IMG/VR virus record: IMGVR_UViG_3300023215_000876
Span: 1-47,934 of that record
Direction: 5' to 3' (one strand)
DNA: 47,934 bases
From: a virus
The notes under the pieces: generated by a model
Seen by the model: the letters and a program-made list of their open reading frames with translations, nothing else
Databases searched by the model: none
Told to the model about the DNA's origin: nothing
Shown here: positions 3,523 to 20,782 of the stretch, piece after piece
How the letters are laid out: every line of letters begins with the position of its first letter
How positions within the stretch are numbered: position 1 is the first letter of the stretch
Program-made: the position numbers and the translations under genes

Positions 3523-3655
3523 GGTTGTAACCTACTACTTCTCAGAGTGGTTCGATGTCATGAACCACGCTAAATACCAGAATAAACTCTCTTGTGTCTA
3601 TCTGGTGACAGTAATTGATAAGCACGGCAAGGATGTGACAGGAGATATGAAATGA
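3491..3655 (+). CDS. Hypothetical protein, 54 aa
   Basis: A 54-codon frame starts at ATG 3491 with GAGGAAA about 9 bases upstream. It ends in an ATGA overlap with the amidoligase gene at 3652, which indicates coupling. The C-terminal part (VTVIDKHGKDVTGD) looks like ordinary protein. Function unknown. Confidence 0.5.
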   Translation: MYTVHSHIQGRVVTYYFSEWFDVMNHAKYQNKLSCVYLVTVIDKHGKDVTGDMK

Positions 3656-4581
3656 CAACCCTGCGAGAGTATGCCCCCACTAAATACTTCACCGACGAAG
3701 CCCTGGACAGGGTGGAGGTGGGATTTGAGTGTGAGTTTGCTGTCCCTAAACAGTTTGATGTGAATGAAATTGAAGGCCGTCTCAAAGCCATTAAGCCCGG
3801 TCTGATCCATCACTGCTACGAAGATGGCCCTGCCGAAGTGGGATACAGGCCTGTTGAGGCAGTGACCAATTGGTGGAGTACCTCCGAAGCGTTAGAGAAC
3901 CTACACTTGATCTTGGATGGTATCAGGAAGCTGGAGGCCAAAACCCACCAAAATTCCTCATGCCATGTGAATATCACTCATACAAGCCATGAATTCAATC
4001 TCAACAACTTTTGGGACAAGGAGAGATGTCAGACCCTTGGTATGGCCTTCCCTGCAGTTGGTATTCATCAGTATTTGGATCGGCCCTCCTTGCATGCTTG
4101 GTGTCCTTCCATCACTCATCAAGTCGCCTCCAAATTATACAAAACCAAAAAGCGAGGCAACTTTGACTCAAAGGCAATAGACCATATCAATTCTACTCTC
4201 CACCCTTGGGCTAGAAATGCAGTTTCCTTCAACTCCACCTATCAACATGATGAAACAACTCGGATTGAGTTCCGTGTCCCCGGCGGCGAAGGGTATCACA
4301 CCGAAAAGGGAGAGGAACGTATCAAAGCCGTTGTCAAGACTTGCGCCGCTTACATCCTCGGTATGATCGAGCAGCCTAAACTGATGACCTTTCTTGCAAG
4401 GCAAAACATAGCTTTGGCAAATAACCTTTCTAATCACCCTATCAGTAGTTATGAATATATTCCTAAAGCAAGGTATGTTGAGGAAGATGAGTGGTGTGAT
4501 GATATGTGTGGTTGTGGTTATGATGAGGGAAACTGCGAATATTGTAGTGAGTGTGATTACTGCGGGTGTGAGTGTGAATGA
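3652..4581 (+). CDS. Amidoligase-like (GCS-fold) enzyme with cysteine-rich tail
   Basis: Shows the pattern of COOH-NH2 ligases of the gamma-glutamylcysteine/glutamine synthetase fold: an N-terminal GFECEF strand with acidic metal ligands (residues about 24-29), an SCHVNITH motif (about 103-110) and TRIEFRVPGGEGYH (about 204-217). These enzymes use ATP to join a carboxylate to an amine. The last 33 residues hold nine cysteines and many Asp/Glu, an unusual metal-binding-like tail. A second amidoligase is encoded at 6157, and a GATase and an ATP-grasp ligase follow. GGAG precedes ATG 3652. The substrate is unknown. Confidence 0.65.
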   Translation: MTTLREYAPTKYFTDEALDRVEVGFECEFAVPKQFDVNEIEGRLKAIKPGLIHHCYEDGPAEVGYRPVEAVTNWWSTSEALENLHLILDGIRKLEAKTHQNSSCHVNITHTSHEFNLNNFWDKERCQTLGMAFPAVGIHQYLDRPSLHAWCPSITHQVASKLYKTKKRGNFDSKAIDHINSTLHPWARNAVSFNSTYQHDETTRIEFRVPGGEGYHTEKGEERIKAVVKTCAAYILGMIEQPKLMTFLARQNIALANNLSNHPISSYEYIPKARYVEEDEWCDDMCGCGYDEGNCEYCSECDYCGCECE

Positions 4582-4838
4582 CAACCAATCTTAAAGACAC
4601 ACTCAAGCTTGGCTACTCAGCCCGGGTGGGCTCCAACATTGTCCATTACCCCACATTCCCTCGTGGTATGACTGTTACTGGATTTCATTCCGCATCGAAC
4701 ACTGGATGGGGATCAACTGGCCATAAGCGAGGCCGATCACTCAAGGGTACACCAGAGTATGTTACCCTTGTCAAATATTATGAGGAATTATATGACACTG
4801 AACATTCGATGCCTCGAACCAATAACGACCGACGATAA
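4578..4838 (+). CDS. Hypothetical protein, 86 aa
   Basis: Starts in an ATGA overlap with the amidoligase stop, so translation is likely coupled. Basic, Gly/Ser/Thr-rich, with no signal peptide. No family recognised; by position it may belong to the amidoligase operon. Confidence 0.5.
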   Translation: MTTNLKDTLKLGYSARVGSNIVHYPTFPRGMTVTGFHSASNTGWGSTGHKRGRSLKGTPEYVTLVKYYEELYDTEHSMPRTNNDRR

Positions 4839-5037
4839 AAAATATCTGCCTGTAGTTGAGCTTATATTCGACTGCGGAATTGTGTGGACTTGGAAGTATT
4901 CCAAATCTTATTGGGGTATTACCGAAGCATGGAAAGTTGGTAGACAGATTGCTACCTCTTTAAGGAAAGAGGGATACTTACTATCCGATATGCTGCGTGA
5001 GGCCAATATTACCTCTGATCAATCAGTAATCATTTAA
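4792..5037 (+). CDS. Hypothetical protein, 81 aa
   Basis: Start placed at ATG 4792, which has GAGG about 8 bases upstream; it overlaps the previous gene by 47 bases. The middle (VELIFDCGIVWTWKYSK) is beta-like and the rest helical. Function unknown. Confidence 0.55.
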   Translation: MTLNIRCLEPITTDDKKYLPVVELIFDCGIVWTWKYSKSYWGITEAWKVGRQIATSLRKEGYLLSDMLREANITSDQSVII

Positions 5038-5052
5038 CAAAGGAAACCTGTT

Positions 5053-5256
5053 ATGAAGATGTCTAACCTTCCCTCTCATGCTCAAGCTCGTTTTGCTATT
5101 GGCAATATCGTTAAGTCCCCCGGTTTCCAGTCGGTGACCGATGTGACTGGTAAGACCTATGACAAGGACGACCGAAAGGAATTCTGGGCTGACCTTCTAC
5201 GATATCAGCAAGTGAAAGTCGCCGGTAATGGTCTTACCGTTCGGTTATCCTTCTAA
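5053..5256 (+). CDS. Hypothetical protein, 67 aa
   Basis: AAGGAAA precedes ATG 5053. The stop overlaps the next start (TAATG at 5254-5258). Small mixed alpha/beta protein; no family recognised. Confidence 0.6.
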   Translation: MKMSNLPSHAQARFAIGNIVKSPGFQSVTDVTGKTYDKDDRKEFWADLLRYQQVKVAGNGLTVRLSF

Positions 5257-5459
5257 TGCAAACACATTCAATCACAATCCCTTTGAAGAAGGTTCGAGAG
5301 TTAGTCAGGGAGTATGCCAAAACCATTTCTATGGTAAATCCCAACCTCCTCCATTGGAAGCTAGAAAATACCGGAGAAGGTGAAAATCCTATTCTTGCCT
5401 GTGTTACGTTAAGTAACCATTCCAGTACCGAAGTACGAATTCCGTACAAAGACGACTGA
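5256..5459 (+). CDS. Hypothetical protein, 67 aa
   Basis: Coupled to the preceding gene by a one-base overlap. An N-terminal helix (KKVRELVREYAK) is followed by strands. Function unknown. Confidence 0.55.
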   Translation: MQTHSITIPLKKVRELVREYAKTISMVNPNLLHWKLENTGEGENPILACVTLSNHSSTEVRIPYKDD

Positions 5460-5475
5460 TTCAGGGGAGGGAGAG

Positions 5476-5670
5476 ATGCGCAAACCTAGTCGAGACCGTT
5501 CGATAAAGAGGATGAAGGGTCACAATAGGTTTGCGCACTCTCTTGAAGACCCCTTCTTTAGACATAAGAGAATATCCTCTCAAAAATTATATACTAGGAA
5601 AATTAAGCACCCTGGCCGATTGGATCGGGGGGCAGAGCACGTTGAGAGTGAAAAGGACCTACCCAAATGA
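5476..5670 (+). CDS. Basic hypothetical protein, 64 aa
   Basis: A strong purine ribosome-binding site (GGGGAGGGAGAG) precedes ATG 5476. The product is rich in Arg, Lys and His, so nucleic-acid binding is possible but unproven. It ends in an ATGA overlap with the next gene. One GGGGGCAG site of the dispersed motif lies inside it (5628). Confidence 0.5.
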   Translation: MRKPSRDRSIKRMKGHNRFAHSLEDPFFRHKRISSQKLYTRKIKHPGRLDRGAEHVESEKDLPK

Positions 5671-5834
5671 TTGAAATGCGTTGGTACCAAGATGTACCTA
5701 ATGCCAGTTTATATACTAAGGCACCACGACTTCAGTTTCGGTACAGAATTAACCTATCTGATGATACAGTTTGGTCTGATTGGAAGGAAGTTCCTTTCGT
5801 CAGTGATTCTAACAGATATGAGGACCTCCCCTAA
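5667..5834 (+). CDS. Hypothetical protein, 55 aa
   Basis: Runs from ATG 5667 (ATGA overlap) to TAA 5834, where the next gene begins in a TAATG junction. Aromatic-rich beta-like sequence (LQFRYRINL, WSDWKEVPF). The tight junctions on both sides are the main support. Confidence 0.55.
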   Translation: MIEMRWYQDVPNASLYTKAPRLQFRYRINLSDDTVWSDWKEVPFVSDSNRYEDLP

Positions 5835-6154
5835 TGCCCTTTTACCAACACAGCAAAACCCGAGAAAGAATCGAATGCTCACAAGAGGTGTTCGATTATC
5901 TAAAGGCAGGCGGCATAATCTCTGTCGCCAAAGTAGGCTCACGCGAGTGTGAGTTGTGGGGCTTCCCCAAAGAGTCCCACTTACCTGTCTTGGTTTACCA
6001 AGGCACAAACAACTTTGAACCTCTCTCCGAGGAAGATCAGATGTTAGAACCGGTTGTAGACTTATCAGAAGAGCCTTCTGCCTTTGCTCAACTCAAATCT
6101 GACAACACCGATGATTGGGATGGTGTTGACTTCTGCTTAATGATTAAGGAGTAA
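5834..6154 (+). CDS. Hypothetical acidic protein, 106 aa
   Basis: Starts in a TAATG junction. The N-terminal half is alpha/beta; the C-terminal half is highly acidic. It ends two bases before the second amidoligase. No family recognised; by position it may serve the amidoligase. Confidence 0.6.
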   Translation: MPFYQHSKTRERIECSQEVFDYLKAGGIISVAKVGSRECELWGFPKESHLPVLVYQGTNNFEPLSEEDQMLEPVVDLSEEPSAFAQLKSDNTDDWDGVDFCLMIKE

Positions 6155-6156
6155 TA

Positions 6157-7569
6157 ATGCCCACATCTTCACATCTTGTGAATCGACAAAGCTTAGTTGC
6201 AAACATTTTAGCAGCTTCCATTAGCTTATCCCCATCTGACAAAGTCCAGATAACAATAATAGTTACCGATCTTATTCCAGATGAAGATCAATGTCCCATT
6301 TCTCACAGTTGGTTTGCCGATAAAATTACTGTAATAAGTAGATTAACTTCTATATCAAGCAACGAAATTATAACAATGGTTTCAGAATTCATAGTTGTAG
6401 CATTCTGCAATAATTGTGGGGAGCCTGTTAATGCTCCTTTTGAAATGGCCTATGTAGAAGAACCTATTTGTTTGTCCTGTCGTGAGAGTTACTATATCTA
6501 TAACGAGGATGAAGAAACCTATGTATCAAGGCATGATACTGAACATTACGAAAATAGTGAGACTCAGAGTGTCTACGCATATGATGCAAATCCCCTTAGA
6601 TACTTACCAAACTGCATTTTGTCTACTCGTGAAGAAAAACGCAATCTCAAAGACCAATACCATCCTGTTTTGCTGGGAGTTGAGATAGAGGTAGAACGTA
6701 AACCTAACATAGACCCCGAAAGCACCTCAAAATTGGCAGAGTATGTTAAGACTTGGTGTATTCTGAAGGGTGATGGTACTCTTAGTAACGGTTTCGAGAT
6801 AGTGTCTGCTCCCGCTAGTTTTGAGTGGCATAAGTATGGTTATGGGGCTGGCAAGAAGGGGGCAGTTGGCCCTTGGAAAGAGCTGCTTAACAACCCGCTC
6901 ATTCGTGACAATTTTACATCGTGGAATACTGGTACTTGTGGTGTTCATGTCCATGTCAGTCGGGCGGCAATTACTCCACTTCAAACCGGTAAGATTATGG
7001 TGTTTCTCAACGCTGTCGAGAACTTTGAGGTAATTGCAGCTATTTCTGGGCGCGGTGATACAGAATATGCTCGGCATCAGGCTAATTCCAACATATTTGA
7101 ACCTATTCGTACTGGTAGGACACGGAGTGATCGCTATGTCTGGTTCAATCTTACCAACAAAGCCACGGTAGAGTTTAGAATGTTTCGGGGCAATACCAAA
7201 TATGAAGGGTTCATGCGTTACCTGGAGTTTGTTCAGGCCACAGTAGAGTTCACTAGAGATGCAAGTATCCGCCATCTTCACATCAAGAACTTCTGTAAGT
7301 GGCTCAAAAAGGCTGAAAACCATTCCCGCTTCAACATTCTGTATGCCTTTATGTATAGAAAATGGAGTGCTTACTTTGACACTATTGATGTTCGTAAGTC
7401 TATGTTGAAGAAATCTAAGCCTGCCAGAATTGATGACGGGTATATATTGGTTGTCAAACCCTATAAAGCCAAACCAAAGCCCAGAGTTTCTCGTAGTGCT
7501 AGACACATCATTAGATATTGGCCTGAGCAAGTCAATCTCTACACTGTTCAATCTAAAATCCCCCTGTAG
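6157..7569 (+). CDS. Amidoligase family (Amidoligase_2-like) enzyme with zinc ribbon
   Basis: A 470-residue protein with AGGAG before ATG 6157. CNNC (84-87) and CLSC (105-108) form a probable zinc ribbon. The catalytic domain follows: GVEIEVE (174-180), DGTLSNGFEIVS (206-217), CGVHVHVS (261-268) and a late strand VEFRMFRG (338-345), the pattern of amidoligases of the GCS/glutamine-synthetase fold. The family makes amide bonds between a carboxylate (often glutamate) and an amine using ATP. It is followed by a glutamine amidotransferase and, after the iteron region, an ATP-grasp ligase, a combination that suggests a peptide or amide synthesis pathway. Target unknown. Confidence 0.8.
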   Translation: MPTSSHLVNRQSLVANILAASISLSPSDKVQITIIVTDLIPDEDQCPISHSWFADKITVISRLTSISSNEIITMVSEFIVVAFCNNCGEPVNAPFEMAYVEEPICLSCRESYYIYNEDEETYVSRHDTEHYENSETQSVYAYDANPLRYLPNCILSTREEKRNLKDQYHPVLLGVEIEVERKPNIDPESTSKLAEYVKTWCILKGDGTLSNGFEIVSAPASFEWHKYGYGAGKKGAVGPWKELLNNPLIRDNFTSWNTGTCGVHVHVSRAAITPLQTGKIMVFLNAVENFEVIAAISGRGDTEYARHQANSNIFEPIRTGRTRSDRYVWFNLTNKATVEFRMFRGNTKYEGFMRYLEFVQATVEFTRDASIRHLHIKNFCKWLKKAENHSRFNILYAFMYRKWSAYFDTIDVRKSMLKKSKPARIDDGYILVVKPYKAKPKPRVSRSARHIIRYWPEQVNLYTVQSKIPL

Positions 7570-7590
7570 TAGTTGTGAAGGAGAAATATT

Positions 7591-8679
7591 ATCTGCCTAA
7601 TCATTGTTGATTCAGAGTCAAAAGGCGTGGAAGAAGATTTAATTCATGCTGCATACGAAAACAATCCCGATGGGTTTGGTGTAATGATGCCAGTTGGTAG
7701 GGGAAAGATTCATGTCCATAAGATACTTCCCAAAAAGTGGGAAGACTGTTGGAATACTTATCAGAAGTATGTTGGAAAACCTATTGCACTACACTTCCGT
7801 CTAAATACCCAAGGAGACACTGACAAAGCTAATTGTCATCCCTTCAAGGTGCTAAGTAAAAAGCAGCATGGCAGAGATTGTTGGCTTATGCACAATGGAC
7901 CTTACATCACCTCCCCTTCTATCGATGTAACCAAATCCGACACATGGCACTTTGTGGAATACATTCTAAAGCCTATTCTAGTCCGCAATCCTGATTTGTT
8001 GGAAGATACAGTTCTCCTCAATATCCTTGAAAACCTTGCCATTCAAGACCGTCTAACTATTCTTGATGGAAAGAAAGAGACCTTCCTTAACACTAACTTT
8101 GATGATAAGGATGTGTTTGATGGATTGGCTCTTTCCAACACTTATAGCCTTCACAGAGGTACAGGCCTGGAGTATGATCCTGCAACGGGAGTCAGTTCCT
8201 TTCGCAACAAAAACTCTTACACCTCTTCAAATTATGTATATGGTTTCGAAAGAGCTAATAACTACTATGATCAGTATGATACCTATGCAGATTGTGCGGG
8301 TCCACTCAGTAAAGAAGAAGTACCTGTCATTATGGATGTCTTTGAAAGCATCCTTAAAGCTATGAATGAGGGTTCCTTTAAGAATGATAACCCCGTCAGA
8401 CTAGAGATAGAAAGCTACATTAATCTAGATAATGAAGCTATTGATCTCACTTTTGAAGACATTGATGAGACTGGTCAAGCATTTAAGGATGCCAAAATGT
8501 GGGAAGAAGATAAGAATAATCCTGACTTCGTAATGGGTAGTGTACCTACAAACGATAAATTAGATGTGTCCAAACTTGACGGTCTCGATAAAATAAAGGA
8601 AATGTCAGAATCTGAATTGTATGACTGGGTTACTCAGTCCCCTGAAGAGGCTTGTAATGTTTTAACGGAGATTTTATAA
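7591..8679 (+). CDS. Class II glutamine amidotransferase with non-AUG start
   Basis: Class II (Ntn) amidotransferases use an N-terminal cysteine exposed by Met removal. The frame extends upstream of the first ordinary start (GTG 7627) to a codon ATC (7591) followed directly by Cys: M/I-C-LIIVDSES. AGGAG (7579-7583) is spaced 7 bases from ATC. Family motifs follow: PDGFGVMM, HFRLNTQGD with NCHPF, and MHNGPY. The preceding ATT (7588) could also initiate. The enzyme would release ammonia from glutamine for the neighbouring ligases. The C-terminal half is acidic with no recognised domain. The gene ends in an overlap with the next start. Confidence 0.8.
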   Translation: MCLIIVDSESKGVEEDLIHAAYENNPDGFGVMMPVGRGKIHVHKILPKKWEDCWNTYQKYVGKPIALHFRLNTQGDTDKANCHPFKVLSKKQHGRDCWLMHNGPYITSPSIDVTKSDTWHFVEYILKPILVRNPDLLEDTVLLNILENLAIQDRLTILDGKKETFLNTNFDDKDVFDGLALSNTYSLHRGTGLEYDPATGVSSFRNKNSYTSSNYVYGFERANNYYDQYDTYADCAGPLSKEEVPVIMDVFESILKAMNEGSFKNDNPVRLEIESYINLDNEAIDLTFEDIDETGQAFKDAKMWEEDKNNPDFVMGSVPTNDKLDVSKLDGLDKIKEMSESELYDWVTQSPEEACNVLTEIL

Positions 8680-9029
8680 TGGCTTCAATCGAAGAACAAA
8701 CTGACTTCCTCTTACAATTAGACCTTTTCTTGAAGAGCATTGATGACTTCAAAACCCTTCCAGAAATAATTGCAAAAATAAGAATTAAAACCCATATTGC
8801 TAAAATTAATGGTAACCAAGACTATGAAGATGAGGTACTGTTTGCTACTGTACCAAATAAAGATTTTCCAAGCCCTTGGACCAAAATGCATAATATAAAA
8901 GAAGAAACTTGGTCAGTTGTTAGTAATACCAGCGAAGGCGCTTTGGATGTCGGATCAGGCTTTTCAAAGTTTGTAGCTGCCTTTCTTTGTTCCCGAGCAA
9001 ATCACCAAAATTGGAGAATCTCTAAATGA
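8679..9029 (+). CDS. Hypothetical protein, 116 aa
   Basis: Starts in a TAATG junction with the amidotransferase and ends with a 4-base overlap to the next gene, so the three are probably co-translated. Mostly helical N-terminus; no recognisable motif. Placement suggests an accessory role in the amidoligase pathway (inference). Confidence 0.6.
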   Translation: MASIEEQTDFLLQLDLFLKSIDDFKTLPEIIAKIRIKTHIAKINGNQDYEDEVLFATVPNKDFPSPWTKMHNIKEETWSVVSNTSEGALDVGSGFSKFVAAFLCSRANHQNWRISK

Positions 9030-9556
9030 AATTAGTTGTCACTAATGATCTTAACTACTTTGAAATCAATGCAGACGGTTTTATGATAGCTCTTGATGTA
9101 CAGCGTCCCCTTATGTTAGAAGATGTAACCTTTCGATACAATTTTAGCACTATCTTAAGCAATCCTCTTATCATTGAAGGGATACCTTCTTCACAGTTCA
9201 CAGCCCTTTCTGCCCTGACATGTTGGGATAGTATGATGGGAGAGTCAATCAATGGTAATATGGAAACATTCCATGCTGCAGGTTGGCGCAAGTTAAAATG
9301 CCATACTTTCGCAACTACATGGATTTGGATTGCTGATCCTGTCTCTGAATATGATGGAAGGGAAATACATAGGGATGATGGAAACACTTCATTTTCTGTT
9401 AAGCCCCAAAATCACACTGTTTTGAGTGCAGATGCTCTTATGTTAAGTGGCGCTAATAATGGCACCACTCTTTTACATAATAATATTGGACTACAATTTG
9501 TGAAAAACCCTGTAGTAGCCAATGGTTGTGCCTATCAAGACCTCTTAACTACCTAA
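9026..9556 (+). CDS. Hypothetical protein, 176 aa
   Basis: ATGA overlap with the previous stop. Alternating hydrophobic pattern suggests a beta-rich protein. An HRDDG string (about residue 119) followed later by a His could be metal ligands of a cupin-like or 2OG-oxygenase-like fold, but the spacing is not convincing. Last gene before the iteron-bearing non-coding region. Confidence 0.6.
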   Translation: MKLVVTNDLNYFEINADGFMIALDVQRPLMLEDVTFRYNFSTILSNPLIIEGIPSSQFTALSALTCWDSMMGESINGNMETFHAAGWRKLKCHTFATTWIWIADPVSEYDGREIHRDDGNTSFSVKPQNHTVLSADALMLSGANNGTTLLHNNIGLQFVKNPVVANGCAYQDLLTT

Positions 9557-9561
9557 AGCAT

Positions 9562-9751: not shown

Positions 9752-9773
9752 ATCCCCCTACTAGGAGAAGTAA

Positions 9774-10625
9774 ATGAGAAAACGATTGTGGTGCGCCCGC
9801 CCTTCGGTTACAGCAGATAACCTTGCCAGAACGATGGGATTACTGAAACTGTCTCGGACTATATGTTCATTCCATCCGAGACGAGAGGATAAAATATTGA
9901 ATTGGGGTTCTTCTAGTGTTCCCAGAACTACAATTGGAGCTTTTATAACTCATCCCTTAACCTGGATAAATAAGCCTGGAAATGTCTACAATGCTGTAAA
10001 CAAGATAGAAACCTTTCGGATACTGAAAGAAGCAGAAATCCGCACCCCCGCCTGGACTACTGATGAGAATGAGGCTTTAGTTTGGTTACTGGATGAGGAA
10101 AGGTCAGTAGTCTGTAGATCCATTGTCAATGGTCACAGAGCAGAGGGTCTAGACATTATTAATCCAGGTGACTATGACGAAGGAGAAGGCCTTCCATACC
10201 TACCACCCTGCCCCCTTTACACCAAGTATATCAAGAAAGAGCATGAGTATCGCTTACACGTTATGCGTGTGCCCTCTAATTACAGTATATATTGGATGGA
10301 TGAAGACCTTTATACAGTCATATATACCCAAAAGAAGCTCCGCCGCCGCGCCACCCCTGACAGTGAGGTAAATTGGCAGGTCAGAAACCATGCCAATGGG
10401 TTCATCTATGCTATGGTTGATCCTCTCTTAATGAGTCGGGATAATGGTGCCCCTAAGATGGCCTGTGATGCAGTCAAAGCCCTCGGACTTGACTTTGGTG
10501 CGGTGGATATGGTACAAACACACTCAGGTAAATTCTTTGTACTGGAAATTAATAGTGCCCCAATGTTGGTGAACCGCTCCCTTGACATTTACGTTGACAA
10601 TTTTAGGAGATTCTATGCCCTTTAA
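9774..10625 (+). CDS. ATP-grasp ligase (RimK-like)
   Basis: A 283-residue protein, AGGAG before ATG 9774. ATP-grasp signatures in order: NAVNKIETFRILKEAEI (about 80-96, the first lid), VVCRSIVNGHRAEGLDI (about 112-128), LYTKYIKKEHEYRLHVM (about 146-162) and the Mg-binding end GKFFVLEINSAPML (about 253-266). Such enzymes form amide bonds through an acylphosphate. It follows the amidoligase and amidotransferase genes across the iteron region and overlaps the next gene by 11 bases. It probably adds an amino acid to the product or target of the amidoligase system; substrate unknown. Confidence 0.8.
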   Translation: MRKRLWCARPSVTADNLARTMGLLKLSRTICSFHPRREDKILNWGSSSVPRTTIGAFITHPLTWINKPGNVYNAVNKIETFRILKEAEIRTPAWTTDENEALVWLLDEERSVVCRSIVNGHRAEGLDIINPGDYDEGEGLPYLPPCPLYTKYIKKEHEYRLHVMRVPSNYSIYWMDEDLYTVIYTQKKLRRRATPDSEVNWQVRNHANGFIYAMVDPLLMSRDNGAPKMACDAVKALGLDFGAVDMVQTHSGKFFVLEINSAPMLVNRSLDIYVDNFRRFYAL

Positions 10626-10956
10626 TCCCAATACATATCGGCTAAACCTATCTTCACACTACAAAGACGCTCTTGACCGAGCCATAGACAACGATGCTGG
10701 GGTGTTTATTCCGTGTGGGTCCAAGGAAGATGCCATGTATTTACGCATGAACTTGGGTAAATATCGGAAGGCACATGAAATTCAACATTTGACGGCAAAG
10801 ATGTCTGCTGACATCACCTATAAATATGCCTATATCTCTATGGATTGCATTCTCCGAGAGTCAATCTGGGGAATTAAATGTCATGTGGTGACAGGAACCG
10901 ATCCCCATAAAAAACTTACATTAATTGATCCACAAACAGGAAAGAGCCTTGATTGA
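10615..10956 (+). CDS. Hypothetical protein, 113 aa
   Basis: Start chosen at ATG 10615 because GGAGA lies 5 bases upstream; an earlier in-frame ATG at 10582 has no such site. Overlaps the ATP-grasp gene by 11 bases. Contains FIPCGSKEDAMYLRMNL, alpha/beta, no recognised family. Confidence 0.6.
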   Translation: MPFNPNTYRLNLSSHYKDALDRAIDNDAGVFIPCGSKEDAMYLRMNLGKYRKAHEIQHLTAKMSADITYKYAYISMDCILRESIWGIKCHVVTGTDPHKKLTLIDPQTGKSLD

Positions 10957-11485
10957 CTTAAAAAAGAGTAACATTCTTACTAACGCCAAGGTTGCACAAC
11001 TCAAACTTTTACCGTCTACTACCATACAAGCCCCTGATCAAATTTCAACAAGGCGTTTAATGAAGTTGGCTACAGAATTTGGAGCTGCCTATTATTGGTC
11101 TAGACGCCCTTACCAAGCTGTAGAGGAAGTGCGAAGTCACAATTATAATCTTGGAAACTATAGTAAAGGTAAGAATTTTTGGTCCTTTCGTATTGGTCGC
11201 CGGATTGTATTAGTGGATACACAGCAAGTCAAACTTCCAAAATCAAAGGTGAGTTTAAGAGGTCCAGCCTATCCAAATGAAGGTCCACCCGCTCACTTTA
11301 ATGGTGAAGCCATAGGACATAGAGATAGTTCCTCTATAAGGGAACGTCCTTTTAATGTCAGGCGATTGAGTGATGGAGAAATAGTGTATGAGGATGATGG
11401 TGTAGAGTTTACATCAGACTTTCTCTCTGCTATTACTAGAGGCCATACAACAGATTATCCACACCGTGGAGAAGAAGAAGAGTGA
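10949..11485 (+). CDS. Hypothetical protein, about 178 aa, TTG start
   Basis: No ATG is available near the 5' end. TTG 10949 has AGGAAA 6 bases upstream and overlaps the previous stop by 8 bases; TTG 10925 is an alternative. Basic N-terminus, acidic C-terminal EEEE. No family recognised. Confidence 0.5.
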   Translation: MIDLKKSNILTNAKVAQLKLLPSTTIQAPDQISTRRLMKLATEFGAAYYWSRRPYQAVEEVRSHNYNLGNYSKGKNFWSFRIGRRIVLVDTQQVKLPKSKVSLRGPAYPNEGPPAHFNGEAIGHRDSSSIRERPFNVRRLSDGEIVYEDDGVEFTSDFLSAITRGHTTDYPHRGEEEE

Positions 11486-11691
11486 AGTATCTAAATTATG
11501 TCGTCTTTACATTTGCCCTTCTATTTATTCCCATCATGTGTACCACCAACCTAATAGTATCTGAAAGAGAGACCCCAAATGAGCAGAGGTTTGTTAGTAA
11601 CACACCGCAGAATTACCAAGGATTGGAGTCAGTCTCCTATAGAGAGGTATCACAACCCGAATGGAGGGCCTCGATACATTGGAGTATCTAA
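11482..11691 (+). CDS. Possible exported small protein, 69 aa, GTG start
   Basis: GTG 11482 overlaps the preceding stop. The first 22 residues are a hydrophobic signal-like segment ending in Cys (IPIMC), not a good lipobox. It overlaps the next gene by 113 bases, so only the first part may matter. Starts with GTGAAGTATCTA, as does the lipoprotein gene at 20262. Confidence 0.4.
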   Translation: MKYLNYVVFTFALLFIPIMCTTNLIVSERETPNEQRFVSNTPQNYQGLESVSYREVSQPEWRASIHWSI

Positions 11692-11824
11692 GGAGACAGT
11701 TACTAGAGTTCTAGAAGGTATAACCCGTAGGGATGTAAAGGCCCATCTAAAATGGCTTAAAACTCGGTGGAAGGGTATTAAGTGTCCCACTCCCACCCAA
11801 ATAGAGACTATGAGATATGAATGA
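11579..11824 (+). CDS. Basic hypothetical protein, 81 aa
   Basis: A GAGAGA ribosome-binding site precedes ATG 11579. The protein is basic with a helical C-terminal half (VTRVLEGI, DVKAHLKWLKTRW). DNA binding is possible. Its end overlaps the next start. Confidence 0.5.
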   Translation: MSRGLLVTHRRITKDWSQSPIERYHNPNGGPRYIGVSKETVTRVLEGITRRDVKAHLKWLKTRWKGIKCPTPTQIETMRYE

Positions 11825-12051
11825 TGGATGACCTCAAAGAGCTATTGGAACAAATCGCCCATACTGATTTGAGGACAGGCGGGCTACCGGCCCATACATT
11901 TGATACATCTAAGGAAGCCGCCGAAGCCCTAACGTCTAAGGACGCGGAGATAGCCGCCCTTAAGAAAGAGCTTATGGTAGCTGATAAGTATCGGTTAGGT
12001 TCTGATGAATGGGACAAGAAGTGGCGGGATCAAGAGGCAAATGGTAACTAA
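11821..12051 (+). CDS. Small coiled-coil-like protein, 76 aa
   Basis: ATGATG start overlapping the previous stop. Heptad-like helix around residues 30-52 (EAAEALTSKDAEIAALKKEL). Typical of small phage early proteins; function unknown. Confidence 0.55.
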   Translation: MMDDLKELLEQIAHTDLRTGGLPAHTFDTSKEAAEALTSKDAEIAALKKELMVADKYRLGSDEWDKKWRDQEANGN

Positions 12052-12304
12052 GAAATTCACCCTTGACGACAAGTCCTTAGAGGCGTATAATAGTGAGAAG
12101 AAGTTCATGGAGGGCCTCAACGACCTCATTGAAACACACAAGGAGACACTGGACAAATCTCGGATGGCAGTAACCCTGTTAGACGTTGCACACGATATAC
12201 TGCTTACCGAGAAGGGTCCTTATCAATCCCTTATCATAGCAACAGGCATCCTCCACGGTTTCAGCCAGCGAGGATTGTTCTTTGACCCGGAGAAACTACA
12301 CTGA
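12041..12304 (+). CDS. Hypothetical helical protein, 87 aa
   Basis: Start at ATG 12041 has AGAGG about 6 bases upstream, overlapping the previous gene by 11 bases. Its stop overlaps the next start (TGATG). All-helical, charged; no family recognised. Confidence 0.55.
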   Translation: MVTKKFTLDDKSLEAYNSEKKFMEGLNDLIETHKETLDKSRMAVTLLDVAHDILLTEKGPYQSLIIATGILHGFSQRGLFFDPEKLH

Positions 12305-12462
12305 TGAACTATATGCAGACTGTAAATCATCCCAACTACCAACAAGCCAATCTACAGGTACGCAGCGCCGTCCGGCTGTTACAGGCCCTTGGCATGACAC
12401 AAGACGAGGCCCGCCAACTTGTACGTGATTGGACCTCAGGAGCAGGAGACGGAGCAGCATGA
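12304..12462 (+). CDS. Small hypothetical protein, 52 aa
   Basis: Runs from ATG 12304 (TGATG junction) to TGA 12462 (overlap with ATG 12459). The segment VRLLQALGMTQDEARQLVRDW resembles a small helix-turn-helix, too short to assign. Confidence 0.5.
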   Translation: MNYMQTVNHPNYQQANLQVRSAVRLLQALGMTQDEARQLVRDWTSGAGDGAA

Positions 12463-12707
12463 CAAAGAAAGCAGATAAACTGAACCCCGCCGATTTGGTG
12501 GAGGTAACAGGACTGTTCGACCGTGATCTGGAGGAGTTGGCAGATGATAAGCCAGCCCTGGAGAAGATCATAACGCACCTACGGAAGCAGCGTGAGAATG
12601 TAGCTGCTGCTGAACAAGCGGGTAAAAGAATCACAAAGAAGGTAGCGACTGGTAAGGCCAGCAAGCCCTTCTCACTTGATAGCCCACTCTCTTTATTAGG
12701 ACAATAA
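12459..12707 (+). CDS. Hypothetical protein, 82 aa
   Basis: ATG 12459 overlaps the previous stop. Helical and charged, with a lysine-rich C-terminal part. No family recognised. Confidence 0.55.
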   Translation: MTKKADKLNPADLVEVTGLFDRDLEELADDKPALEKIITHLRKQRENVAAAEQAGKRITKKVATGKASKPFSLDSPLSLLGQ

Positions 12708-12708
12708 T

Positions 12709-12987
12709 ATGATTACTACTGGATTTATCACCGTTGCCACTGTTGCGTGGCTCTTACAAGTCTTACTCTTTCCCTTGAATCCTATGGACAATGGCATGGT
12801 TGCAACTGTTGCGCAACGCTTTGATACAAAGAAAGAGTGTCTTCAGGCAGCTCCCTCTATAATTCCTCAGATAATTAATGACTATATGAAGTCTAAATTT
12901 GAGCGGCCTAAAGAAGTCAAATTTATCTGTGTCTTGGAAAATGCTATGCTCCCCGGCACGGAAGAAACGCGCCCGGACCCCATATGA
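12709..12987 (+). CDS. Small exported or membrane-anchored protein, 92 aa
   Basis: The first 23 residues form a hydrophobic segment suited to a signal anchor. The rest is soluble and contains a pair of cysteines (CLQ at about 43, ICV at about 74), which could form a disulfide in the periplasm. Starts one base after the preceding stop. Confidence 0.55.
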   Translation: MITTGFITVATVAWLLQVLLFPLNPMDNGMVATVAQRFDTKKECLQAAPSIIPQIINDYMKSKFERPKEVKFICVLENAMLPGTEETRPDPI

Positions 12988-13034
12988 TTAGTTTTTGGGA
13001 CTGGTTCTTCTGGCCCTTGCATTGGCTGTTCTGA
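12984..13034 (+). other. Possible 16-codon hydrophobic leader peptide
   Basis: A tiny frame rich in Trp and Phe (five W, five F in 16 codons) links two genes: ATGA at its start and TGATG at its end, where the hydroxylase-like gene begins. It might be a coupling peptide; expression is unproven. Confidence 0.25.
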
Positions 13035-13591
13035 TGGATAATTTTTACCGGATACCGGAGTTAAAGTTTGACATTGACAAACTTCAAGAGGCTACTAATC
13101 AAGTGATAAGTAGGGTTCCATTTGAGGGGGATGATCCTAGTATTATGTTGACACACATACCAGGAGACCTTAAGTCCACAACAGGAGACAACTTGGTTGG
13201 CCAGTACTGGACTAATCCTGACCACGACGAGAACGAGATTTCTGTAGAGAAGGAAATTCAAGAGGAACTGTACACAGAAATCAGACCTGAGTTTGAGGAT
13301 ACATACTTCAAGTATGTCTATAATAAATGTTCAGAGAAGTTCCGACTAGGTAGGGTGCGCTTACTGTTACGAACTTACTGCACCATGCAGGACTGGCACC
13401 GAGACCCTGAGCCGCGCCTCAATATTCCTATAACAACTAATCCTGGAGCGCTGATGATCATTGACACAGAAGCAAGACACTTACCGGCTGATGGCTATGC
13501 TTGGCTTACTAACACGGTAAATTATCATACTGCCATCAATGGTGGACGTAAAGATAGAATACATCTTATTGCTACAGTGTTCGATAAGTAG
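13034..13591 (+). CDS. 2OG-Fe(II) oxygenase-like (Asp/Asn hydroxylase-type) protein
   Basis: A 185-residue protein. Its C-terminal half has the pattern expected of a 2-oxoglutarate iron oxygenase of the aspartyl/asparaginyl hydroxylase type: WHRD (His122, Asp124), RLNIPI, GYAWLTNT, NYHTAINGG (His165) and Arg175 for 2OG. Start set at ATG 13034; a TTG start at 12995 would add a hydrophobic extension. Such enzymes hydroxylate proteins, small molecules or bases. It lies on the same strand as the amidoligase genes and may modify the same product (inference). Confidence 0.6.
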   Translation: MDNFYRIPELKFDIDKLQEATNQVISRVPFEGDDPSIMLTHIPGDLKSTTGDNLVGQYWTNPDHDENEISVEKEIQEELYTEIRPEFEDTYFKYVYNKCSEKFRLGRVRLLLRTYCTMQDWHRDPEPRLNIPITTNPGALMIIDTEARHLPADGYAWLTNTVNYHTAINGGRKDRIHLIATVFDK

Positions 13592-13595
13592 ATGG

Positions 13596-13721
13596 ATGAG
13601 AATATTTATCGTTATGATCCTGCTATTCTGGGTAGGATTAACCGCATATACAAACCTCATTCTACCTTTGCACCCCCAGGTTGGAAGCCTACGATCCTTA
13701 TTAGGATTAAATGAACGTTAA
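13596..13721 (+). CDS. Small single-span membrane protein, 41 aa
   Basis: ATG 13596, 2 bases after the preceding stop. One hydrophobic segment (about residues 3-22), then a short soluble tail. No specific function recognised. Confidence 0.45.
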   Translation: MRIFIVMILLFWVGLTAYTNLILPLHPQVGSLRSLLGLNER

Positions 13722-13765
13722 AAAGCTAATTGAAACATCCCCTAACTTTTAAGATAGGAATGTAA

Positions 13766-14011
13766 ATGATCTATAACACTCACACCAACAGTTTTAGTGA
13801 TACATTGGAAGAAGAAGCGCCTATACCTACTTTGGGAGAAGAAATGTCGGAGGAAGACCAAGCATCTAGAATAGCAAAAATAGCGGACGAAATAGAGTGG
13901 GCCTTTACTTGGACAGAAACTGAGATAGGTAGTAATTATTGGATGGACGTAGTTCAAAACTTGATGGAAGTGTCTACAGTTATTAGGAATAGTGAAGGGA
14001 GAAGGGGGTAA
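13766..14011 (+). CDS. Acidic hypothetical protein, 81 aa, tandem paralogue A
   Basis: Begins MIYNTHTNSFS, nearly the same as MIYNSETNSFS of the next gene. Both then share a helix containing RIA and a W-x-S-x-YW-D motif. Clearly a tandem duplication. Acidic overall; function unknown. Confidence 0.6.
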   Translation: MIYNTHTNSFSDTLEEEAPIPTLGEEMSEEDQASRIAKIADEIEWAFTWTETEIGSNYWMDVVQNLMEVSTVIRNSEGRRG

Positions 14012-14012
14012 G

Positions 14013-14246
14013 ATGATCTACAATTCAGAAACCAACAGCTTTTCAGAGCAAGGCCCTTCGACAACTAGAACCGGAAGGGCTGCTCCTAGTGGACAGCGCT
14101 TTAGAATAGCTGCTGACGCTATCAATGTTTTTCATTGGAACAGTACAGATCAGGGCTCTAGATATTGGGGAGATATCTATGAAGAATTAATGGTAATGCA
14201 TAATGACCTTCTTCGTAATGAAGGCAGTAGTGATGGGCCAGATTAA
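14013..14246 (+). CDS. Hypothetical protein, 77 aa, tandem paralogue B
   Basis: Start at ATG 14013 after GAAGGGGG, one base past the stop of paralogue A; this start aligns the two proteins exactly. Ends in TAATG with the nuclease gene, so it is probably co-translated with it. Confidence 0.6.
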   Translation: MIYNSETNSFSEQGPSTTRTGRAAPSGQRFRIAADAINVFHWNSTDQGSRYWGDIYEELMVMHNDLLRNEGSSDGPD

Positions 14247-15163
14247 TGGAGGATACACTAGGTGAACACAAATTCCAAAAGTATATTGGTGGTAGACAAA
14301 TTGTTTGGGACGCATCCAGTTTTAGCACAGTGCAGGCCTGTCCCCAACTCTACCGATACAAACTCGAAGGCTATCGGTCCAAGGTAGAATCTATTGATCC
14401 CCTATGGGGTAGCGCCGTACATCGAGGAATGGAAGTCTTGGACACCCACCGGTTTTACGGCCACTCAAAGGATGAAGCCGTTTCAGACGCTGTTCAAACA
14501 ATTCTGGCTGAGTTTTCAGCCCTGGGACAGAGTACGGATAACAAGAAAAACATGGAAACGGCCATCCGCGCCATCGTCTGGAGAGGAGAAGAGTTCTATT
14601 CTACAGACCTCATGAAGATAGCCGCCCTCCCCAATGGGGACCCGGCGTTGGAAGTTAGGTTTGAGATACCCTTCCCTGGTACTGAGTTCAGAGTATCAGG
14701 GAAGATAGATAAGGTAGTGTGGTGGGAGAACGATCTCTATATTGTAGATACTAAAACCACTAAGTCAGGACTGGGTGATTGGTACTTCAACTACTTCGCC
14801 CCGGCGGTGCAGACTACCTGTTATATCTGGGCCACCAGGGATGTGTTAGGGATGCCAGTGAAGGGTTTCATTGTGGATGCCATCCAAACAGGAGTAAACT
14901 TCACTCGCTTTGGACGAGCCCCTTTCACTGTTACCCCTTCTCAGGTAGATGAGTGGCTTACTGACACAGCTATTACCTTAGGACAAGTTGAAAAGTATCA
15001 TGAGTTAGATCACTGGCCCCGCAACTTCAATTCTTGTGGGAACTATGGGGGCTGTGTTTTCAGGGGGGTTTGCCGTAATGATCGTAGTCATAGGTCGGCC
15101 TTCCTTGACGCGGACTTTAACTTCAAGCCCTACTTGGGTACACCATATCATGAGGAAACTTAA
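14246..15163 (+). CDS. Cas4/RecB-like PD-(D/E)XK nuclease with Fe-S cysteines
   Basis: A 305-residue protein. Motifs: GSAVHRG (His59), GKIDKV (Asp155) and IVDTKTT (Asp168, Lys170), the active site of RecB-like nucleases. Four cysteines (Cys32, Cys264, Cys270, Cys276) in the one-plus-three layout of Cas4 and AddB indicate a 4Fe-4S cluster tying the ends together. It would degrade or trim DNA ends in recombination or host-DNA breakdown. Together with phage IscU and an A-type carrier in the same transcription direction, this suggests the phage helps build its own cluster. Confidence 0.8.
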   Translation: MEDTLGEHKFQKYIGGRQIVWDASSFSTVQACPQLYRYKLEGYRSKVESIDPLWGSAVHRGMEVLDTHRFYGHSKDEAVSDAVQTILAEFSALGQSTDNKKNMETAIRAIVWRGEEFYSTDLMKIAALPNGDPALEVRFEIPFPGTEFRVSGKIDKVVWWENDLYIVDTKTTKSGLGDWYFNYFAPAVQTTCYIWATRDVLGMPVKGFIVDAIQTGVNFTRFGRAPFTVTPSQVDEWLTDTAITLGQVEKYHELDHWPRNFNSCGNYGGCVFRGVCRNDRSHRSAFLDADFNFKPYLGTPYHEET

Positions 15164-15198
15164 ATGGAAATAACTTATAATACAGGAGTTAATACATA

Positions 15199-15360
15199 AT
15201 GAGTTATATGTTGCCCTTACTGCTTATTTATTTTATTTGGCAGCTTATAAAACCAGCAAAAAACATCTTACGTACTCCTTTGTTTGGATGCTCTTTGGAT
15301 TATTATATTATTAAAGCATGTAAGCCAGACGAGAGGTTTAGTATGGAAAGATACCAGTAA
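15199..15360 (+). CDS. Small membrane protein, 53 aa
   Basis: ATG 15199 with GGAG upstream. The N-terminal 17 residues are strongly hydrophobic, then basic and amphipathic. Fills most of a gap between larger genes; function unknown. Confidence 0.4.
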   Translation: MSYMLPLLLIYFIWQLIKPAKNILRTPLFGCSLDYYIIKACKPDERFSMERYQ

Positions 15361-15396
15361 TTAACATCTTAGAGAGTAGAGCAGGAGGAATGTGTA

Positions 15397-15480
15397 ATGG
15401 AAGTAATTATAATATTCACTGTAATGGGTGCGATATGCGGGATATTTTTTGGTTCATCTAAGGAGAGAGAGAAGCCATAA
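15397..15480 (+). CDS. Tiny membrane peptide, 27 aa
   Basis: GGAGGA lies upstream of ATG 15397. One hydrophobic span (EVIIIFTVMGAICGIFF) followed by a charged tail. Supported by the ribosome-binding site and membrane-peptide composition only. Confidence 0.4.
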   Translation: MEVIIIFTVMGAICGIFFGSSKEREKP

Positions 15481-15496
15481 ACACCAAGGAGGGAAA

Positions 15497-15754
15497 TTGA
15501 ACAGAAATGATTGGTTAGAATACATTGGTGAGCACAGCGATGATGTCGAAGACAAGGACAAAATGATAGAACGACTCAAAGATGAAATCGTAGACATCAC
15601 ACACCCTGAGTTTGGTTCTATGTGGGATACGGTAAGGGAAGAGTGTGCAAAGGAGAGGGAGGCTTGTGCAAAAGTGGCAGATGACGAAGATGATCGCCGT
15701 CACGGTATAGCAAATAACATTTCCATCATCATCAGAGCGAGGGGAAATGAGTAG
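15497..15754 (+). CDS. Hypothetical acidic protein, 85 aa, TTG start
   Basis: TTG 15497 is the start best served by AAGGAGGG (15486-15493). The protein is acidic and helical. EECAKEREACAKVADDE is a common phage helix (cysteine- and alanine-rich, seen in many small phage proteins) of unknown role. Confidence 0.55.
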   Translation: MNRNDWLEYIGEHSDDVEDKDKMIERLKDEIVDITHPEFGSMWDTVREECAKEREACAKVADDEDDRRHGIANNISIIIRARGNE

Positions 15755-16001
15755 GGCCAAGCGCGAAAAGAAAGTCAAGCACACCTACCACAACCTAAAA
15801 TTTACAATGAAGGAACATAGGGAACTCAACGCCCTCAACCAAATGCATTCCCTATGGTACATCAGTGATGTTACCAAGGGTCAGCACGGCACAATAGTGG
15901 GAAGATTTAGGCTAATTACCTTGGCCGAAGTAGCATTGGATGCATTGAATAAGAGGTGGCCCCTCAGAAACAAGCGCAAATATATAAGGAGAAATCCATG
16001 A
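15747..16001 (+). CDS. Basic hypothetical protein, 84 aa
   Basis: ATGAG start overlapping the previous stop by 8 bases. Very Lys/Arg-rich at both ends. Possibly nucleic-acid binding; not recognised. Confidence 0.5.
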   Translation: MSRAKREKKVKHTYHNLKFTMKEHRELNALNQMHSLWYISDVTKGQHGTIVGRFRLITLAEVALDALNKRWPLRNKRKYIRRNP

Positions 16002-16219
16002 ATAGTGACTCACGGCTCAATATATTGGAGGAAAAGTTTGAGTGCTTAATGGACTGCCATAAGGACATACAAGACGCACTTAGCAATTTTGAGTCCTTGA
16101 TTGCACACTTTGACTCCGAAATACTCAACTTGAAAAGTAACGGATACGAATATGAGCCAAGAATGCGCATGGAACTAAAAGAGGAACTGGAACTGGAAGA
16201 GGAACTAGAAAATGAGTGA
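15998..16219 (+). CDS. Coiled-coil acidic protein, 73 aa
   Basis: Start at ATG 15998 has GGAGA 6 bases upstream. Long helix with heptads, ending in a Glu/Leu-rich tail. Overlaps the next gene by 8 bases. Confidence 0.55.
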   Translation: MNSDSRLNILEEKFECLMDCHKDIQDALSNFESLIAHFDSEILNLKSNGYEYEPRMRMELKEELELEEELENE

Positions 16220-16583
16220 CGTAATTGATTTCACACCTAAACTAAAAGAGAAACACCTCGATAAGATGATGGCCGAGGCCGCCGAAACTCCCGCCGCCGA
16301 GTGGACACCAATCCAGGCACTAGATCAAGCCCGTGAGTGGGCGGCGGCTCGGGGGGCAGACAAGTGTATTGTTATATGGACCGAGGCCCCACCCCCTGAT
16401 CCAGTTATAACCAAAGACGATGGCACAAGAGTTGTGCTTTCTGATGGCGTAGAGACCCCGACGGGTATGGTTGGACCAGTACAGTCTCAGTCAGTCTACT
16501 ACATGATCTCAAACATGGACCGATCAGACGCGCTCGCCCTAGTGGTACACCTTGGAAAGAAACTGATAACGGAGTGGTTTTAA
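16212..16583 (+). CDS. Hypothetical protein, 123 aa
   Basis: N-terminal acidic helix, then an alpha/beta region (CIVIWTEAPPPD, YYMISNMDRSDALALVVHL). Resembles small phage proteins of unknown function; one GGGGGCAG motif (16352) lies inside the gene. The stop overlaps the next start. Confidence 0.55.
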   Translation: MSDVIDFTPKLKEKHLDKMMAEAAETPAAEWTPIQALDQAREWAAARGADKCIVIWTEAPPPDPVITKDDGTRVVLSDGVETPTGMVGPVQSQSVYYMISNMDRSDALALVVHLGKKLITEWF

Positions 16584-16756
16584 TGACTAGAGTAAACGAT
16601 GTAGGAATGATTACAGAGGCTGTAGAAAAGTTAGCCCGCAGTATGGAAGTTTTAGATCTTGAGGAGTGCTTTATACGACATGAACTTGAGCATTACTTAA
16701 ATAAAGCACCTAAGGCAGAGGTAGAGCAGCTCATTATTGATTGGATGGGGAAATGA
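16583..16756 (+). CDS. Hypothetical helical protein, 57 aa
   Basis: Start ATG 16583 in a TAATG junction with the previous stop. Acidic helical protein (HELEHYLNKAP). Function unknown. Confidence 0.5.
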   Translation: MTRVNDVGMITEAVEKLARSMEVLDLEECFIRHELEHYLNKAPKAEVEQLIIDWMGK

Positions 16757-16941
16757 AGTACAGAATTATCGATGATGGAAGTAGGTTTTGGGACGTACCC
16801 ATCCGAATAGAAGAACTGTGCACAGTAACCGGTTGGAATTTTAAAGGTTGTTTCTTCACATACTGGGGCGCTCGCCACGGTTTAAAGAAGCTAATGAAGC
16901 TACCTAAAGAAAAGATTGTGCTGTATGAGACAGAGAATTGA
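16753..16941 (+). CDS. Hypothetical protein, 62 aa
   Basis: ATGA overlap at 16753. Contains aromatic-rich WDVPIRIEELCTVTGW; no recognised family. Its stop overlaps the TTG start of the cyclotransferase-like gene. Confidence 0.5.
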   Translation: MKYRIIDDGSRFWDVPIRIEELCTVTGWNFKGCFFTYWGARHGLKKLMKLPKEKIVLYETEN

Positions 16942-17342
16942 AAAAGATATTTGTTTATGGTACACTTAAGAATGGTTACCCTCTAAACAGTTGGTTAGAG
17001 AGGGAGGAACTATTGGACCCCGACTATATCACCCACGAAGCTCACTACGATCTCTATGATCTTGGGGGAGCTCCCGGTATGAAGTGGGTGGGTGATGGAG
17101 GCTATCAGATACGGGGCGAAGTGTGGAGTATGAACGATTTGACCGAGAACAATCTGGGCCTTGTTGAGGGGAGCGCATACAAGTTACGCCACCTGCCCCC
17201 CGATCCAAACCTACACTTTTTTGAGTTCCAATATCTTGGAAAATTTATACCACCAATAGGCCATAGATTAAAGGAGTGGACATGGTCGAGTTACAGGTCT
17301 ATCGAGACGGAAAGCGAGAGGGGTCTATCAAGATTAACATAG
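16938..17342 (+). CDS. Gamma-glutamylcyclotransferase-like (GGCT/AIG2 fold) protein
   Basis: Starts TTG 16938 in a TTGA overlap. The opening KKIFVYGTLKNGYPLN is the signature YGTLxxG of the fold. GGAPGMKWVG and a GEVW strand carrying the candidate catalytic Glu follow. Family members cleave gamma-glutamyl amines to pyroglutamate. In amidoligase pathways such enzymes can trim gamma-glutamyl products, which fits the two amidoligases upstream. The C-terminal 20 residues overlap the next gene by 61 bases. At 134 residues the length is typical. Confidence 0.75.
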   Translation: MKKIFVYGTLKNGYPLNSWLEREELLDPDYITHEAHYDLYDLGGAPGMKWVGDGGYQIRGEVWSMNDLTENNLGLVEGSAYKLRHLPPDPNLHFFEFQYLGKFIPPIGHRLKEWTWSSYRSIETESERGLSRLT

Positions 17343-17451: not shown

Positions 17452-17480
17452 TTGACAAAATATTAAAAGCGGCGTATAAT
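17452..17480 (+). promoter_or_regulatory. Perfect consensus promoter before the replication block
   Basis: TTGACA (17452-17457), 17-base spacer, TATAAT (17475-17480). The predicted leader of about 47 bases carries AAGGAGG before the ATPase start at 17534. Confidence 0.9.
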
Positions 17481-20348: not shown

Positions 20349-20387
20349 CAATTAATGGCTGAATATGTAGAGGATATAAAATAAGAT

Positions 20388-20714: not shown

Positions 20715-20747
20715 AAACGTCAAAATTTACTAAAAATTTCTGGAGAC

Positions 20748-20776: not shown

Positions 20777-20782
20777 CTCTGG

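Follow-up and report, generated by a model that had tools for sequence, protein, structure and literature searches.

A seven-gene "Peptidoglycan Modification Cassette" has been described in RIO1-like podoviruses, and its genes include two amidoligases, an ATP-grasp ligase, a gamma-glutamylcyclotransferase (GGCT) and a glutamine amidotransferase (GATase). In that paper (PMC5498523), nine further phages are listed, a superinfection hypothesis is put forward, and action on peptidoglycan is itself given as a hypothesis; the phages with this cassette, RIO1-like podoviruses and kin, include PSA-HP1, RIO-1, phiEco32, LUZ24, PA11, tf and CW02. Here we compare this cassette with a locus in the window, by which we mean the whole 47,934-base stretch of the IMG/VR virus record IMGVR_UViG_3300023215_000876. 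The locus encodes, all rightward, an amidoligase (6157), a class II GATase (7591), an ATP-grasp ligase (9774) and a GGCT (16938), each referred to by its first position. It is a variant form of the described phage amide-bond cassette, a kind already in print.

Similar gene sets appear elsewhere in print. The gene order given for UFV-P2 in the available part of PMC3890496 is like that of the cassette, and the UFV-P2 and LUZ24 gene sets are alike it. For phiM6, seven open reading frames (ORFs) are predicted for peptide-bond synthesis, and modification of host peptidoglycan is proposed (PMC6256558, in the text available). OM43 phages carry an amidoligase and a GATase, and 2-oxoglutarate (2OG) oxygenases are present in six genomes, according to the available part of PMC10580990; these enzymes go unmentioned in the available part of PMC9960094.

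The gene at 6157..7569 (+ strand) encodes a zinc-ribbon amidoligase of 470 amino acids, whose family we name AmLzn. Its PHROG families are phrog_16683 (9e-27), phrog_22302 and phrog_2443, the last labeled 'amidoligase enzyme' (3.6e-7). Pfam matches in the locus are mostly under cut-off, as with Amidoligase_2 here (0.029), and weight was put on profiles, gene order and fold. The protein matches a profile of nine phage amidoligases at 1.4e-33 and the AmLzn profile at 4.3e-45. In its AlphaFold model, made with 45 aligned sequences, much of residues 170-400 is near or over pLDDT 90, and a PDB comparison ranks glutamine synthetase and YbdK highest (VIA Z of 12.4 for 1tt4 over 218 residues at 3.8 A, 12.2 for YbdK, and ~10 to 11.6 for glutamine synthetases). 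By this prediction, 6157 is an amidoligase with the glutamine synthetase/YbdK fold. The fold of its core, residues about 160-405, is the same as in YbdK (1r8g) and glutamine synthetases, whereas its zinc-ribbon-like N-terminus, its about 8-15% identity to them and its glutaminase partner set it apart. Residues E178, D206, E214, H264, H266, R299, E339 and R341 are invariant in 47/47 non-redundant relatives (from 84), so the catalytic-type residues are intact as judged from the alignment. One related locus (L138) has two copies of the zinc-ribbon amidoligase, at 5739-6605 and 9899-10753, ~4 kb apart.

The class II GATase, or glutaminase, is encoded at 7591..8679 (+ strand); its gene apparently starts with ATC, and the next codon is TGC, for Cys. 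It matches the GATmc subfamily profile at 2e-29 and Pfam GATase_4 at 0.0074, under cut-off; with the cassette's main GATase subfamily it scores 2.2e-4 among 13 window proteins. The GATase profile A2 in turn hits 1xff, the glutaminase domain of GlmS, with 6e-9. C2, R70, N102, G103 and D117 are invariant in 40/40 non-redundant relatives (from 82), and we take the Cys beside the initiator Met, the Arg, the Asn-Gly and the Asp to have the class II roles familiar from GlmS. Absence of catalytic residues had been set beforehand as a test of the pathway proposed in the preliminary description; in the core, that is, in the amidoligase and the GATase, the residues taken as catalytic are kept.

The start codon of the GATase gene is unusual. 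The codon before Cys2 is ATG in 39/40 relatives and GTA in one, versus ATC in the window. No ATG, GTG or TTG lies between the stop at 7576 and the Cys codon, which leaves ATT at 7588 and ATC at 7591 as candidates; the first ordinary start is GTG at 7627. Only with translation from ATC 7591 does the Cys take position 2. A Shine-Dalgarno-like AGGAGA, read from the sequence, lies at 7579..7584 (+ strand), six bases 5′ of the ATC, and the gene apparently starts at this ATC (or at ATT 7588). The ATC is present in both assemblies of the virus, the second being IMGVR_UViG_3300028892_000792, which is 99.985% identical to the window over 20.6 kb and probably the same virus, so that the two are not independent.

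The two enzymes are neighbors far beyond the window. A GATase adjoins the zinc-ribbon amidoligase in 76/78 amidoligase-anchored loci, a count that admits overlapping stop-to-stop frames and falls to 62 under a stricter rule; one exception (L137) stops at a contig edge and the other (L162) has no adjacent GATase. In the window, both subfamilies are likewise adjacent on the same strand with the amidoligase first, and the gap is 21 bases if ATC 7591 starts the GATase. Class II glutaminases pass ammonia to a partner synthetase, as in GlmS and PurF. Because amidoligase and glutaminase lie side by side in so many loci, the simplest reading is a glutamine-dependent amide synthetase. The GATase would free ammonia from glutamine, 6157 would use ATP to couple ammonia or another small amine with a carboxylate, and together they would form a two-protein enzyme. 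We consider this core chemistry quite probable; the ammonia hand-over, the substrates and the order of steps we infer, whereas the families, their co-occurrence, the residues and the 6157 fold are computed.

The same two subfamilies sit side by side, again with the amidoligase first, in OM43 phage MEP401, mycobacteriophage MosMoris (Marvin group) and Manatee Spring phage ctgrD200. Unlike in the window, no ATP-grasp was found in these three whole records.

In the window, a RimK-like ATP-grasp ligase is encoded at 9774..10625 (+ strand). It matches phrog_2599 at 1.8e-57, the cassette ATP-grasp profile at 8.3e-63 and RimK-type PDB relatives at 5e-7 to 2e-6. It is matched by 309/50,697 phage records, and a relative is encoded in at least 542 IMG/VR stretches. 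This ligase would extend the same acceptor at a carboxylate by one amino acid, most probably glutamate. Alternatively, the locus might put a peptide or amino-acid tag on a host or phage protein in the RimK manner, redirecting host machinery or hiding from defense. RimK modifies ribosomal protein S6, as the names of the PDB matches agree, and the nearest relatives of the ATP-grasp are RimK/alpha-L-glutamate ligases, yet its NCBIfam matches to MptN (6.9e-10) and rimK_fam (9.8e-9) are both far under cut-off. A protein tag also leaves unexplained the tight amidoligase-glutaminase pair, which mostly occurs without an ATP-grasp, and we hold it to be unlikely.

A GGCT/AIG2-like protein is encoded at 16938..17342 (+ strand), ~6 kb from the core. 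It matches Pfam GGACT at 3.8e-9, over cut-off, and the cassette GGCT profile at 1.5e-11. Tyr7 and Gly8 (the Tyr-Gly motif) and Glu77, presumably the catalytic residue, are invariant in 6/6 aligned proteins, that of the window included. The GGCT would remove gamma-glutamyl groups as 5-oxoproline, for trimming or recycling.

Whether these genes keep company was seen in loci around relatives of the ATP-grasp. They were the best 80 among the matches listed, not dereplicated, so they lean towards relatives of the window. The window's twin left out, 79 remain, and 53 of them have 5 kb on both sides, 26 short-flank loci being dropped. Two further partners were counted, a COOH-NH2 ligase and a companion, 'mid' (LUZ24 gp17 family), which is a defining feature of the cassette in our own reading. 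The 53 loci have a GATase in 52, an amidoligase in 52, a COOH-NH2 ligase in 50, 'mid' in 50 and a GGCT in 16, and the nearest copy of each partner is always on the strand of the ATP-grasp. Without the flank filter (n = 79), the counts are 73 for the amidoligase, 63 for 'mid', 61 for the GATase, 57 for the COOH-NH2 ligase and 23 for the GGCT. At least four of the five partners are present in 50/53 loci, and thus the genes travel together. The preliminary description, which took them as one cassette, is borne out on this point, as relatives sampled from either anchor do not carry them singly and scattered.

The cassette stays together in three forms. Form A has the order GATase, COOH-NH2 ligase, 'mid', amidoligase and ATP-grasp, exactly so in 29/53 loci, and includes LUZ24 and phiEco32; as variants, 10/53 have a second ATP-grasp stretch upstream, and 8 have the GATase after the amidoligase. 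The second ATP-grasp-type stretch in those 10 loci lies upstream of the GATase. Form B has no ATP-grasp; its zinc-ribbon amidoligase is usually accompanied by a GATase. Form C, the zinc-ribbon pair plus an ATP-grasp, is found in the window and three other loci (L080, L081 and L094).

L080 (IMGVR_UViG_3300040985_001032, also L097) is collinear with the window through the cassette to Sak4. Matching genes are the amidoligase (35% identity), GATase (47%), 8679, ATP-grasp (37%), 10582 and 10925, followed by 12429, then a nuclease (50%), 16212, GGCT (35%) and Sak4 (66%). It differs from the window in that its GATase starts with ATG, its ATP-grasp is not a sister of the window's in a tree, and relatives of neither the 3652 protein (one search without a positive control) nor the hydroxylase, both described below, were found there. 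In L081 and L094, the zinc-ribbon amidoligase, GATase and ATP-grasp are directly in line on one strand, as in the window, whereas profile searches of the fetched stretches gave no GGCT or 10582-type protein.

Compared with the Peptidoglycan Modification Cassette, the window equally has an ATP-grasp, a GATase and a GGCT near replication genes. Of the six cassette families looked for as marks of membership, four are there: an Amidoligase_2-type amidoligase (6157), the ATP-grasp, the class II GATase and the GGCT. On the other hand, its amidoligase and GATase come from other subfamilies, its GGCT lies ~6 kb downstream, and a hydroxylase and the orphan 3652 are extra. An iterated six-seed profile gives no COOH-NH2 ligase in the window at E<=1e-4 (the best of 13 proteins at 0.37), and no 'mid' companion is found at E<=1e-4 either.

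Our explanation as a whole is a variant cassette with an amide synthetase core, glutamate ligation and GGCT trimming, and we lean slightly towards it. Several results weigh against it. An ATP-grasp is present in 1/78 of the fetched amidoligase-anchored stretches and absent from 77; the whole records other than that of L080 lack it in 9/9, and a GGCT is present in 19/78 of the loci. Since ATP-grasp and GGCT are often lacking, the full pathway is not obligatory. In a FastTree of 97 ATP-grasps, the window does not stand beside L080, so a single joining event does not follow from form C. The core pair is not universal either. The fetched 8.6 kb around the amidoligase of C. difficile phage AR1086-1 and the fetched 10.4 kb around that of a Microcoleus phage fragment contain no GATase, and in a Christensenellales phage amidoligase and GATase are ~1.1 kb apart. 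A GATase starting at GTG 7627 would be without its Cys. Finally, no assay of these phage enzymes is announced among the matches listed from the open-licence literature.

Upstream of the pair, 3652..4581 (+ strand) encodes an orphan protein of 309 amino acids with a Cys-rich tail. Five ordered motif blocks, GFECEF, EDG, EAV, CHVN and RIEFR, are found in it. The block pattern occurs in 140/174 amidoligase-family ORFs, elsewhere among 15,829 ORFs only in the five copies of 3652, and in 0/20,000 shuffles; it was composed after inspection of 3652 and is therefore support rather than proof. Profile comparison by hhalign gives 48% with the nine-sequence profile, but larger profiles bring this down to 7% and 1%, and controls (30 shuffles and one reversal) reach up to 2.7 and 6.3 with the larger profiles and 8.7 with unrelated ones. 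Because the control scores are comparable, the hhalign statistics do not carry the amidoligase claim. No Pfam, PHROG or NCBIfam match is found, and no relatives appear in phages, viral contigs, species genomes or 11 related records (the last search without a positive control). Two PDB matches fall on the Cys-rich tail and were judged to be chance. The single-sequence AlphaFold model has a pLDDT of 37.6 and is unusable.

The 3652 protein is thus weakly supported as possibly a divergent glutamine synthetase/GCS-fold amidoligase; if so, it may act as a second amidoligase in place of the COOH-NH2 ligase of other cassettes. Two GCS-fold amidoligases had been named in the preliminary description, and the assignment stands for 6157 by profiles and fold and is weak for 3652. 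The six genes named there are all open and rightward at their positions, and their families fit the names except for 3652. A pair of amidoligases had been regarded as notable in itself, but two are usual in this cassette, as in UFV-P2, LUZ24 and the available part of PMC5498523.

The other extra gene encodes a 2OG-Fe(II) Asp/Arg-hydroxylase-type protein at 12995..13591 (+ strand; a TTG frame, with an ATG at 13034). Pfam Asp_Arg_Hydrox gives 3.4e-4, at 20.9 versus a cut-off of 22.6 bits, and the PDB beta-hydroxylase 7v4f gives 6.7e-13. The aligned region keeps HxD plus a later His and Arg, which we take to be the functional motif of such enzymes. Its single match in 50,697 phage records, at a threshold of E 1e-3, is in Pelagibacter phage Mosig (43% identity), where the surrounding 10.5 kb has neither amidoligase nor GATase. 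No relatives of this protein, the only ones sought, are found in the other loci surveyed, collinear L080 included. A conserved cassette step is rejected on these grounds, and with it the earlier suggestion that the hydroxylase is a shared part of the pathway. Defense-system profiles give one match, of DndD to the hydroxylase (4.6e-4 over 55 residues), which was taken as chance.

Butirosin is made by a protect-oxidize-deprotect scheme with the ATP-grasp BtrJ and the GGCT BtrG. By analogy, the window could make a hydroxylated, gamma-glutamyl-protected amino-acid conjugate, in which ligases build, the 2OG enzyme hydroxylates and the GGCT deprotects, with the ATC start keeping the glutaminase low. 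We consider this analogy far-fetched.

The locus might instead be partly a relic, in which the ATC marks a GATase that is dead or poorly expressed, and the 3652 protein and hydroxylase are passing cargo. The ATG shared by all but one of the 40 GATase relatives would fit, as would the lack of relatives of the two extra proteins in the surveyed loci. Yet the open frame, the catalytic-type residues and the well-placed AGGAGA are all kept, and the ATC is in two assemblies, though not independent ones. Such decay is very unlikely in our estimate.

As to the target, the amidoligase-GATase pair is present in phages of Mycobacterium and Methylophilales. These hosts have unlike outer layers, and both have peptidoglycan. 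Peptidoglycan or a cytosolic target is thus favored over lipopolysaccharide, albeit weakly. A peptidoglycan precursor or stem peptide, altered early in infection, is both the published guess and our first choice, held tentatively and with less than even confidence.

Beyond the cassette come Sak4 (17534), a split PolA (18832 and 21536) and a ribonucleotide reductase (24911). This nearness to replication genes and ribonucleotide reductase would suit a role in soluble metabolism, in which glutamine, ammonia and gamma-glutamyl pools are altered for nucleotide or amino-acid supply. In the available part of a 2024 paper (PMC10945688), nitrogen metabolism is proposed for the amidoligase, glutamine amidotransferase, glutathione synthase and GGCT of Phage-ZRK32, but the growth test described there is of the whole phage and not of the genes. 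Cassettes with several ligases would also suggest ordered assembly over pool changes, and a metabolic role seems distinctly unlikely.

The same neighborhood could point to phage DNA with bases decorated by amino acids or amides, as modified bases that carry amines or amino acids occur in some phages. The 21067 protein, within the PolA split, matches PHROGs labeled nucleotide kinase (best 1e-7), but the part of it that hits these 'kinase' families also gives a weak match to Pfam DUF3310. Moreover, no hydroxymethylase or thymidylate synthase homologue is found in the 20 post-cassette genes scanned against PHROGs, smaller genes being partly scanned. DNA decoration is highly improbable. PolA itself lies in two ORFs over 18832-23077 with ~1.6 kb of small genes in between, and the LUZ24 polymerase is split too.

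Several small genes lie between the members of the cassette, all on the + strand. A small protein at 8679..9029 has one base in common with the GATase gene and a counterpart in the same place in L080 (33% identity over 92 amino acids, blastp E 1.4e-5). A 176-residue protein at 9026..9556 has a positional counterpart there at 8652-9140 (phmmer 0.12, not significant). The small protein at 10582..10956 overlaps the ATP-grasp gene, and its family is found in 19/78 amidoligase-anchored loci. The protein at 10925..11485 has low similarity to the L080 protein in the same place (33% over 42 amino acids, blastp 0.001, phmmer 2.9e-4). A comparison with the 'mid' family gave no link (hhalign 11%; between families none exceeds 5%). 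A small-protein family with a Y-Y-R plus GRR motif lies near the GATase and GGCT in other loci (L080, L097, L098, L100-L106, L117, L121 and L136). The window 10925 protein reaches 34% by hhalign against a family of 13 members and may belong distantly to the Y-Y-R/GRR proteins.

Coupling by overlaps, as claimed earlier for most of the genes, holds between GATase and 8679, between 8679 and 9026, and between ATP-grasp and 10582; it fails between 9556 and 9774, where 217 bases intervene, and for the hydroxylase and GGCT, which lie ~2.4 and 6.3 kb past the ATP-grasp with other ORFs between. Overall, the interpretation in the preliminary description is partly supported.

Rightward genes start ~3.3 kb into the window and are followed by leftward virion genes. 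Protein-like leftward ORFs at the left end (1437-1811 and 2108-2335) suggest that the genome may be circularly permuted, with the leftward block running on beyond the end of the window. The region has 43 promoter-like sites versus 31.4 expected from shuffles (sd 5.9), and 11 terminator-like sites versus 12.1 expected. A sigma-70 consensus of 12/12 (TTGACA, 17, TATAAT) stands at 17452-17480, just 5′ of the Sak4 gene, and an 11/12 promoter-like match at 12063-12091.

The window differs from the published cassette in its form, in which an ATP-grasp joins the zinc-ribbon pair, in the additions of the 3652 protein and the hydroxylase, and in the unusual start codon. Ligases of this kind are common among phages, and their products are unreported in the literature searched. 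The near-constant pair of amidoligase and glutaminase, which many phages carry with nothing else of the cassette, is the minimal system in which the chemistry could be tested, and the Marvin-group mycobacteriophages, which carry it, offer a harmless laboratory host for such tests.

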